Assembly (NCBI GenBank): GCA_013002105.1
Contig: JABDKS010000629.1
Span: forward strand, 1 to 5,559
DNA length: 5,559 nt
Direction of reading: 5' to 3'
From: Pirellulaceae bacterium
GTDB taxonomy: Bacteria > Planctomycetota > Planctomycetia > Pirellulales > Pirellulaceae
In this document: positions 385 to 3,072 of the stretch, one piece after another
How positions within the stretch are numbered: the stretch's first letter is position 1
Layout: each line of letters starts with the position of its first letter
Translations under genes and position numbers: made by a program
Notes under the pieces: model-generated
The model's input: only the letters and a program-made list of their open reading frames with translations
Databases searched by the model: none
What the model was told of the DNA's origin: nothing

Positions 385-2288
385 CATTGGCTCCTGATTC
401 GAGCTTGCTTTGGCCACGTAAATGTGAACGTCGCTCCCGCGCCGGGGGACGAATGCAACTCAATTGTCCCTCCGTGAGCTTCTACCGTTTTGCGAATCAT
501 CGCCAGCCCCATACCGCTGCCTTCCACCTTGTCTCGGCTTTGCAAGGTTTCAAACATTTGGAATACGCGTTCGTGAAATCGAGAGTCAATGCCCGGTCCA
601 TCATCAGAAACTGAAAATCGATAGTTCTTGCCTGCGTCCTGGACGCTCACAGAAATCGTCCCTTGATGCGAATCGTGATGCTTGATCGCGTTGCCGATTA
701 AGTTACGAAATACTAGCTCAAGCGGAGCTCGTTGTGTCTCAACAACGGGCAAGTCTTTGGCAACAATCAAGCTAAAGTCCGCCGGCAATGCGATGGTCTC
801 TATTACAACCGCAATCAAATCCCGAACGTCGACCCGCTCGGCTTCTTCCGCCTCCTGACCCACACGCGAGTATTCCAAGAGATCATTCAACAAGGTCTCC
901 AGCCTGCGAATGCGACCATGGAGCGTACGAAAATTCTTGGCGGTCGCGTCATTCACCGTTTCACCACAGTCTTCTTCGATCCACGAAGCCAACTGCGCGA
1001 CGCCCCGCAGTGGTGCTCGTAAATCGTGTGATGCGACATAGGCAAATTGATCCAGTTCCTTGTTGCGCTGTTCAAGTTGACACACGGTATCTCGTAATTG
1101 ATTACTCGTTTGTCGTAACTCCGTCACATCGGTCGAGATCCCACCAATCGCGACGGTTTCACCATCGGGACCCAAGATTGGGAATTGAGTTGTCAGGTAA
1201 ATCTTTTCGTGGCCGTTCTCGTCGAAGCTCTCCTCGGCTTGCACCGTTCCACCGGAGGCGATGACTTCGCGATCTGCAGCCCGAATCGGCTCAACGTCCG
1301 AATCACGGACCCAGGTGTCCGTCTGCCCGAGCACTTCAACGTCCGTGACGGCAAAATTGTCCTTAAAGTATTTGTTCACCAACTGATAGCGGCCGTCGCA
1401 GTCCTTGACGGTAATCGCTGCATCCGCGTGATCGATCACGCCTTGCAGAAGCGTAGCAGACGCTTTCTTTTCTGTAATATCGTGAATGGAACCGGACATC
1501 CGTGTTGGCTTACCGGTTTCATCGCGCGTTGCAGCTCCGCGCCCCCGAAACCATCGGTAGCTTCCGTCGTGCATTCGCAATCGATACTCCACGTCGTAGG
1601 ATTCGCCGTCCTTGAGATGCCGGTCGACCGCGGCCCAGGTACCCGCTTCGTCCTCGGGATGAAGCCGTGTGCTAAAGCTACTTAAATCTCCAGGGAAATC
1701 TTCAGGATCGAATCCGAGCAACTGGGCGAATCGCGGCGCGTACCAAACTTCATCCGTCGCAATATTCCAATCCCAAAGGCCATCATCCGTGCCAGCGACC
1801 GCTAACACCAATCGCTCTTTCGATTCACGTAACTCAGTCTCCGCCTGTTCACGTTTTTCGATCTCCTCTTGCAGGTGTCGGTTGACGTGTGACAGCGAAG
1901 GAAGTGCCAACGCTTGCGGTGCAACCTTGAGCAACGCGATCAGGGTTGCCGACGAGATGATCGCGGTGATCAATCCGATCGAAACGCTAATGCGATCCAT
2001 TGGCCACCAATAAGTAACAACATCGATCAGATGCACTGTTGAACACGAGACGACCAATGCGCAAAACAGCCATAAGATGCGTGGAAATAAGATGTCGCGG
2101 TGTTTCAAAGCGTAGTAAGCCAAGATGCACGCAATCACTAAGAAAACGAAACACGTCACGACATCAGAAACCACGTGCAGCCATCCGAGCCATGGCACTT
2201 GGTGAGAGTCGAATCCTTGGTGCCAGTGTGACAGCAAACCAGGGGTGCGCCATGAACTCTCATCCAAAGGACTCTTCGGCCAATACAT
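384..2288 (-). CDS. Membrane hybrid-less histidine kinase with ethylene-receptor-like sensor domain, two PAS domains, HisKA and HATPase_c
   Basis: This is an inner-membrane sensor kinase of 634 residues. Three hydrophobic helices (about 37-60, 68-92 and 101-124) resemble the ethylene-binding domain of plant ETR1 and cyanobacterial ethylene receptors. Asp42, Cys82 and His86 match ETR1 Asp25, Cys65 and His69 without a gap, followed by the same His-Leu-Ile; Cys and His are the copper ligands in ETR1. A coiled coil (about 134-160) leads to a PAS_3-type domain (about 160-275) and a PAS_4-like domain (about 280-392). A second helix carries the H box with His421 in VASHDLRAPLRG, of the phytochrome-like HisKA type. 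The ATPase has the N box Asn533 (LIGNAIKHHD), G1 DDGPGID (562-568), F box FQMFE and G2 GSGMGLA (590-596). It has no receiver domain. The start is supported by GGGGGAG 8 nt upstream. The response regulator follows with overlapping codons. The actual ligand is inferred and could be ethylene, another small molecule or copper. Confidence 0.95.
   Translation of the reverse strand: MYWPKSPLDESSWRTPGLLSHWHQGFDSHQVPWLGWLHVVSDVVTCFVFLVIACILAYYALKHRDILFPRILWLFCALVVSCSTVHLIDVVTYWWPMDRISVSIGLITAIISSATLIALLKVAPQALALPSLSHVNRHLQEEIEKREQAETELRESKERLVLAVAGTDDGLWDWNIATDEVWYAPRFAQLLGFDPEDFPGDLSSFSTRLHPEDEAGTWAAVDRHLKDGESYDVEYRLRMHDGSYRWFRGRGAATRDETGKPTRMSGSIHDITEKKASATLLQGVIDHADAAITVKDCDGRYQLVNKYFKDNFAVTDVEVLGQTDTWVRDSDVEPIRAADREVIASGGTVQAEESFDENGHEKIYLTTQFPILGPDGETVAIGGISTDVTELRQTSNQLRDTVCQLEQRNKELDQFAYVASHDLRAPLRGVAQLASWIEEDCGETVNDATAKNFRTLHGRIRRLETLLNDLLEYSRVGQEAEEAERVDVRDLIAVVIETIALPADFSLIVAKDLPVVETQRAPLELVFRNLIGNAIKHHDSHQGTISVSVQDAGKNYRFSVSDDGPGIDSRFHERVFQMFETLQSRDKVEGSGMGLAMIRKTVEAHGGTIELHSSPGAGATFTFTWPKQARIRSQ
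391..395 (-). promoter_or_regulatory. Shine-Dalgarno site AGGAG of the response regulator
   Basis: On the minus strand AGGAG lies 6 nt before the ATG at 384 and 3 nt before the ATG at 387, inside the last codons of the kinase. The spacing favours the second ATG. The kinase stop (TGA, 386-384) overlaps both candidate starts, so translational coupling is likely. Confidence 0.7.
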
Positions 2289-2296
2289 GCGATCCG

Positions 2297-2303
2297 CTCC
2301 CCC
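2297..2303 (-). promoter_or_regulatory. Shine-Dalgarno site of the histidine kinase
   Basis: GGGGGAG on the minus strand ends 8 nt before the ATG at 2288. It is a strong purine-rich site in a window where other genes have weak ones, and it supports this start over the later internal methionines, which would remove the membrane domain. Confidence 0.7.
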
Positions 2304-2634: not shown

Positions 2635-3072
2635 ATGGCAAAGCGGAACGACCTGAAACAGAAACTCAAGGCCGCCGATCGTCGGCGTCAGAGGCGAATG
2701 CCCCAGTCGGGAAATTCACCGGCAGTGGGTCCCAACGCGACCTCGCGCAGTGCGGGCCCCGAAATGACCGGTCTGCCCGATGTCACCGGTCTAATCGCGC
2801 GAGCCCTGGTGAAACTGGGGATGACCCATCGCGATCTGGTCGACTCCGCCGCCATCGCCGGACTGCGAGGCGGTTTGAGTAGTCGCCGACCAACGGGATC
2901 GGTGTCGAACGCTGTCTTTGATGAGATTCAGAAAATCTCACAACGCGATGACGTCACCGTGCGTGCCGTTCGCGGCGCGATCAAGGACTTACTGGAGACC
3001 GCATCCAAGCATCAAAGCAAGGGCGATGATCCGAAGAGCTTCTTGAACTATCTGGCCCTGCTGACCAGCTAA
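2635..3072 (+). CDS. Small basic hypothetical protein (145 aa)
   Basis: I do not recognise this protein. Residues 1-21 are very rich in Lys and Arg, with RRRQRR at 16-21. Residues 22-47 are Ser/Pro/Gly/Asn-rich and probably flexible. Residues 50-145 look alpha-helical, with a segment at about 54-102 (GLIARALVKLGMTHRDLVD, then SSRRPTG) that faintly recalls a helix-turn-helix. A basic tail plus a small helical domain would suit nucleic-acid or ribosome contact, but that is a guess. There is no signal peptide or membrane segment. The start has only a poor ribosome site (AGGCGGG directly before ATG). Protein-like composition across the full frame, high third-position GC and a possible promoter upstream support a real gene. 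The nearest gene on the same strand is 460 bp away, so it is probably transcribed alone. Confidence 0.7.
   Translation: MAKRNDLKQKLKAADRRRQRRMPQSGNSPAVGPNATSRSAGPEMTGLPDVTGLIARALVKLGMTHRDLVDSAAIAGLRGGLSSRRPTGSVSNAVFDEIQKISQRDDVTVRAVRGAIKDLLETASKHQSKGDDPKSFLNYLALLTS

Follow-up and report, generated by a model that had tools for sequence, protein, structure and literature searches.

The sensor histidine kinase of the window (the whole stretch of DNA that was analysed, 5,559 nt) probably works no longer as an ordinary ethylene receptor. Judging from the sequence, it belongs to the ETR1_N kinases, keeps the equivalents of D25, C65 and H69 of Arabidopsis ETR1, has changed those of Y32, P36, I62 and K91, and is encoded with complete kinase and receiver domains. 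The explanation preferred here, with moderate confidence, is a former ethylene receptor whose pocket was lost or strongly weakened and whose input would now come probably mainly via the PAS domains.

The kinase and its features are collected in Table 1. Residues 34-129 matched the ETR1_N profile (PF25487) with 80.7 bits (cut-off 27, E 9.8e-23, profile positions 2-97 of 97), a score too far above the cut-off for the resemblance to an ethylene-receptor domain to be chance, and it ruled out both an unrelated membrane family and a chance likeness. The first-pass annotation had described an ETR1-like membrane domain in the kinase and had set a profile search beforehand as its possible refutation; the family returned was ETR1_N, not an unrelated membrane family. 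Three helices were predicted by AlphaFold2 at residues 32-62, 69-91 and 98-128 (mean pLDDT 87.2 for residues 1-150), in agreement with hydropathy. Against the PDB, the domain profile gave one match, a synthetic protein with E 0.13, and Foldseek gave 66 matches, none of them at E <= 0.001. The same annotation had the domain feeding two PAS domains and a phytochrome-like kinase core, and the Pfam order bears this out; the closest solved structures to the kinase core are histidine kinase 8f71 and then bacteriophytochromes, so "phytochrome-like" is a fair label.

Table 1. Features of the kinase gene, its ETR1-type domain and the adjoining regulator gene
Feature	Positions	Strand	Basis and remarks
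Single-domain response regulator, cut by contig end	1..387	(-)	PF00072, 59.6 bits
Sensor histidine kinase, 634 aa	384..2288	(-)	ETR1_N membrane domain, PAS, PAS, HisKA, HATPase_c; ORF and Pfam
Kinase core: HisKA (residues 412-478) and HATPase_c (521-628)	405..1055	(-)	Pfam
PAS 2 (PAS_4 type), residues ~277-396	1101..1460	(-)	Pfam and segment comparison
PAS 1 (PAS_3 type), residues ~152-276	1461..1835	(-)	Pfam and segment comparison with P0207
ETR1_N (ethylene-receptor-type) three-helix membrane domain, residues 34-129	1902..2189	(-)	PF25487, AlphaFold2 model, hydropathy peaks
Gly105 = ETR1 Lys91, changed	1974..1976	(-)	Alignment; Lys in 288/320 and Arg in 19/320 rows
His86 = ETR1 His69, Cu(I) ligand, kept	2031..2033	(-)	Alignment
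Cys82 = ETR1 Cys65, Cu(I) ligand, kept	2043..2045	(-)	Alignment
Val79 = ETR1 Ile62, changed, conservative	2052..2054	(-)	Alignment
Ala53 = ETR1 Pro36, changed	2130..2132	(-)	Alignment; Ala in 48/320 rows, window included
Phe49 = ETR1 Tyr32, changed	2142..2144	(-)	Alignment; Tyr in 312/319 others
Asp42 = ETR1 Asp25, kept	2163..2165	(-)	Alignment
GGGGGAG, likely ribosome-binding site for kinase Met1	2297..2303	(-)	Start-region inspection

The domain was compared with ETR1 in a MAFFT alignment of the window kinase, 49 database relatives and an ETR1 sequence. Asp42, Ile52, Cys82 and His86 fell on D25, I35, C65 and H69 as had been proposed, without a gap from D25 to H69; a three-residue gap then precedes helix 3, in which the matches HLI and TA..S.AT to ETR1, also proposed before, were seen. 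The alignment further placed Phe49, Ala53, Val79 and Gly105 on Tyr32, Pro36, Ile62 and Lys91, which the first-pass annotation had not mentioned, and Leu78 on F61. Wang 2006 reportedly found seven ETR1 residues to be needed for binding, namely D25, Y32, I35, P36, I62, C65 and H69. Most members of this list are confirmed in the available text of PMC11819568, PMC6586836 and PMC8879215. The number seven is given in the accessible parts of PMC11819568, PMC6682694 and PMC6944256, C65, H69, I35, P36 and I62 are counted among the essential residues (PMC6586836), and binding was diminished in the ETR1 mutants Y32A, F61A, I62A, C65Y and H69A (PMC8879215). Four of the seven are kept in the window and three differ (Y32F, P36A and I62V), so the full set is not present, while both Cu(I) ligands and D25 have their equivalents.

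Two further positions near the site were changed. K91, where the window has Gly, is the predicted polar partner of D25 (PMC11819568, in the text available). A Cys before helix 1 was present in 49 of the 51 relatives with a letter there, and the window has Gln24; it has been suggested that the single N-terminal Cys of cyanobacterial proteins may functionally replace the disulfide cysteines of plant receptors (PMC6682694, excerpt). The equivalents of T94, S98 and P110, which are reported for signal transmission in ETR1 (excerpted sources including PMC6586836), were kept.

The residue pattern was counted in 320 distinct domains in which every site could be read, that is the window and 319 others. 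This is an uneven sample, drawn from protein matches (in one search 120 of 1179 proteins were listed) and from genome loci; the loci of profile- and kinase-search matches were taken, some in part only, the motif-pattern genome scan contributed 80 of its 538 confirmed stretches, and rows in which a site was blank were removed (7 of 209 distinct cores, later 1 more). The scan favours canonical relatives because its patterns were drawn from the canonical motif, and the profile searches are free of that bias. In the 319 other domains, none of the seven residues was changed in 230, one in 71, two in 9, and three or more in 9. Three or more changes together with intact D25, C65 and H69 occurred in the window only (0/319 others), and the combination of kept metal ligands with a changed pocket is peculiar to it among the 320 rows. 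Tyr32 was kept in 312 of the 319, and C65 or H69 was lost in 6 of the 7 domains without it, compared with 7 of the 312 that have it; the Fisher value calculated with these counts takes no account of kinship among the rows.

P36A was considered as the decisive change and rejected, since Ala stands there in many bacterial domains, and in many of these the remaining six are unchanged. The sequence DYIAICH was read in 43 of 121 distinct cores, in a set that includes the matches listed, and the organism-named ones looked at were cyanobacteria. I62V also occurs in other bacterial domains. P36A alone therefore says little, and the weight was moved to Tyr32, Lys91 and the relative P0207. The set behind the DYIAICH count took in 162 sequences, 144 with the domain and 18 without. 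Among the matches listed, at least six domains (P0173, P0179, P0182, P0188, P0194 and P0203) have Asn in place of Asp25 while the remaining six residues are unchanged, and two of these are from Stanieria by source name; a receptor with the Asp-to-Asn change works with ~100-fold lower affinity (PMC13012798, as far as its available text goes). The ETR1_N kinase L122:1480-3483 (-) carries Phe for Tyr32 and Cys for His69, so that its motif reads CxxxC instead of CxxxH.

Within the phylum to which Blastopirellula marina belongs, 42 of the 392 genomes sampled carried PF25487; within the family of that species the number was 61 of 241, with 60 above the cut-off. In the kinase-core tree (75 rows) the window was placed within a nine-row group with support 100/97. 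The other eight members (L106, L116, L118, L231, L111, L004, L160 and L165), which are Pirellulaceae-type and other ethylene-binding-domain (EBD) kinases, share with the window an adjacent regulator homologue; unlike it, seven of them have the complete set of seven residues, and the eighth, L165, carries Ser at P36. The changes of the window thus look derived. A regulator homologue adjoins the kinase in 8 of the 9 distinct related kinases checked, and together with the canonical group mates this suggests an origin of the window kinase among canonical kinase-regulator pairs. L020 was the sole one of the nine without a regulator homologue alongside.

The metagenome protein P0207 (641 aa) aligned with the window kinase over 601 aa without gaps at 45% identity, has the same EBD-PAS-PAS-histidine kinase architecture, and was the only gapless full-length relative among the matches listed (120 of 1179 proteins). 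Like the window, it has lost Y32, P36 and the Cys before helix 1; it differs in having Gly for C65, Val for I35 and Phe for I62, and in keeping K91. The EBD tree of 18 rows paired the two with moderate support (91/87), and a kinase-core tree built from those rows placed neither. Gapless full-length orthologues were found neither with the window kinase as query (none in 196 genomes, none in 392) nor with P0207 (none in 241). By segment, the identity between the two was 61% in PAS 1, 44% in the kinase, 40% in the EBD and 37% in PAS 2.

The membrane domain of the window has diverged faster than its kinase core, as far as identities tell. A line was fitted to 120 non-independent pairs from 16 related kinases, of which 15 have the complete set of seven residues and L165 carries Ser at P36. 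Among these kinases identity is higher in the EBD than in the kinase core, and the window shows the reverse. Between the window and L106, for example, the core is 56% identical and the EBD 41%, where 65% would be expected. The EBD of the window lies 15-25 identity points under expectation against its eight closest relatives and only 3-9 points under it against seven cyanobacterial rows.

The response regulator gene overlaps the kinase gene, as its probable ATG (387-385) runs into the kinase stop (386-384), and it is preceded by AGGAG at 391-395. HisKA, HATPase_c and an adjacent receiver domain are all present, as required for a two-component pair. Other genes of the window include a sugar-transfer associated ATP-grasp protein (PF14397; 3533-4843, plus strand), of which the best named relatives were those of Rubripirellula tenax (64%), Planctomycetes bacterium K23_9 (62%) and Stieleria (58-59%), and for which a plasmid search gave 6 records with identity <=36%. 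Going by these relatives, the DNA probably comes from a member of the Pirellulaceae. A 145-aa ORF (2635-3072, plus strand) had no Pfam or NCBIfam match, and an ORF open at the contig end (4731-5558, plus strand) had none in the stretches tried. Pfam and NCBIfam scans revealed no copper gene in the 5,559 nt.

The preferred reading, a former ethylene receptor, would be as follows. The ancestors of the kinase would be bacterial kinases of the ethylene-receptor-like kind, with a single-domain response regulator as partner. The ethylene pocket would have been lost or strongly weakened, and the main role left to the three-helix bundle would be to anchor the protein in the membrane and to couple to the kinase, which it could do although the standard ethylene pocket is gone; it may still hold Cu(I). 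The main input would enter through the PAS domains, PAS 1 first, which is suggested by conservation in the single pair of window and P0207, and the output would be phosphotransfer to the overlapping response regulator. This is supported by the three changes among the seven residues together with the loss of Lys91 and the N-terminal Cys, by the constancy of Tyr32 and the tendency of other domains without it to lose C65 or H69 as well, by the lack of Y32, P36, C65 and the N-terminal Cys in P0207, by the shortfall of the EBD against the eight closest relatives, and by changes that look derived within a canonical group. The kept T94, S98 and P110 equivalents and the well-kept PAS 1 also speak for this reading. 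On the other side, a pure anchor would not need the D25, I35, C65 and H69 equivalents; Y32F and I62V are mild exchanges, and the mutants named for ETR1 were Y32A and I62A (PMC8879215, in part); P36A stands in 48 of 320 rows, in many cases with the other six intact; the shortfall against cyanobacterial rows is small; and the pairing with P0207 has moderate support in the EBD tree, the kinase tree placing neither of the two.

Since Asp42, Cys82 and His86 are kept, copper or another ligand could be sensed, and the kept Cys-x-x-x-His makes a putative Cu(I) site possible. A retuned copper-centred sensor, in which Cu(I) is held by Cys82 and His86 beside Asp42 and the pocket reads copper or a non-ethylene ligand, is therefore a serious rival, which we consider unlikely but the best of the alternatives. 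It would explain why all three residues were retained despite the fast divergence of the domain, a pattern in which the window stands alone. P0207, however, has the same architecture without the Cys, neither Lys91 nor the conserved N-terminal Cys is left, and the short window holds no copper gene.

The first-pass annotation had also proposed that the operon may sense ethylene. Of this, the ETR1-type kinase with its regulator stood, and the part on ethylene was weakened by Y32F, P36A, I62V and K91G, by P0207 without the copper Cys and by the fast divergence of the domain. A working receptor, in which Phe, Ala and Val take the places of Tyr32, Pro36 and Ile62 and Cu(I)-bound ethylene is read, perhaps at lower affinity, is somewhat more doubtful than the copper sensor. 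The ETR1_N match, the kept metal ligands and I35, the occurrence of P36A and I62V elsewhere in bacteria and the conservative nature of Y32F favour it; but P36 and I62 are counted as essential (PMC6586836), and Y32A, F61A and I62A lower binding (PMC8879215; both in their available text), with F61 changed to Leu in the window too.

About equally doubtful, and offered as speculation, is that the window kinase and P0207 form a lineage leaving ethylene sensing stepwise, in which the N-terminal Cys, Tyr32 and Pro36 were lost first and the copper Cys later. The window protein would then be a stage at which a Cu(I) site persists beside a new pocket that reads copper or another small ligand. Separately, domains of the ethylene-receptor type may have taken on new roles repeatedly in the Pirellulaceae group, as seven kinases of that family (L206, L207, L208, L209, L211, L212 and L213) lack the Cys, with Ser, Gly or Ala at its place. 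Three of these seven (L206, L209 and L212) were scanned with Pfam and are hybrid kinases with receiver domains.

A public protein entry for the same contig (P0001, 538 aa; among the 18 sequences without the domain) starts at Met97 (1998-2000, minus strand), so most of the membrane domain is cut off, and a domain census built on gene calls would miss it. That this is the true start and the membrane domain lies outside the protein is very improbable and was dismissed, since the Shine-Dalgarno-like GGGGGAG stands before Met1, no such site precedes Met97, the P0207 alignment is gapless from residue 34 to 634, and the ETR1_N match runs across Met97.

Bacterial ETR1_N kinases are already known; on ethylene receptors in Planctomycetes, no paper was found in the one literature library to which the search was confined. 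An ethylene receptor is readily assumed where PF25487 matches or a Cys-His pair is conserved, and the window keeps the metal ligands with an altered pocket. Together with P0207, of the same architecture without the copper Cys, it gives natural material for telling apart the binding of copper, the binding of ethylene and the coupling of the signal. With Arabidopsis ETR1 the window shares the three-helix ETR1_N domain and the equivalents of D25, I35, C65, H69, T94, S98 and P110, and differs by Y32F, P36A, I62V, F61L and K91G; ETR1 has a GAF domain (PMC6586836, in part), whereas the window has PAS-PAS and a separate response regulator. AzoEtr1 of Azospirillum brasilense is, like the window, a bacterial EBD-PAS-histidine kinase, and it binds ethylene when expressed in yeast; it keeps all seven residues, whereas the window changes three of them and has two PAS domains (PMC11819568, as far as its available text describes).
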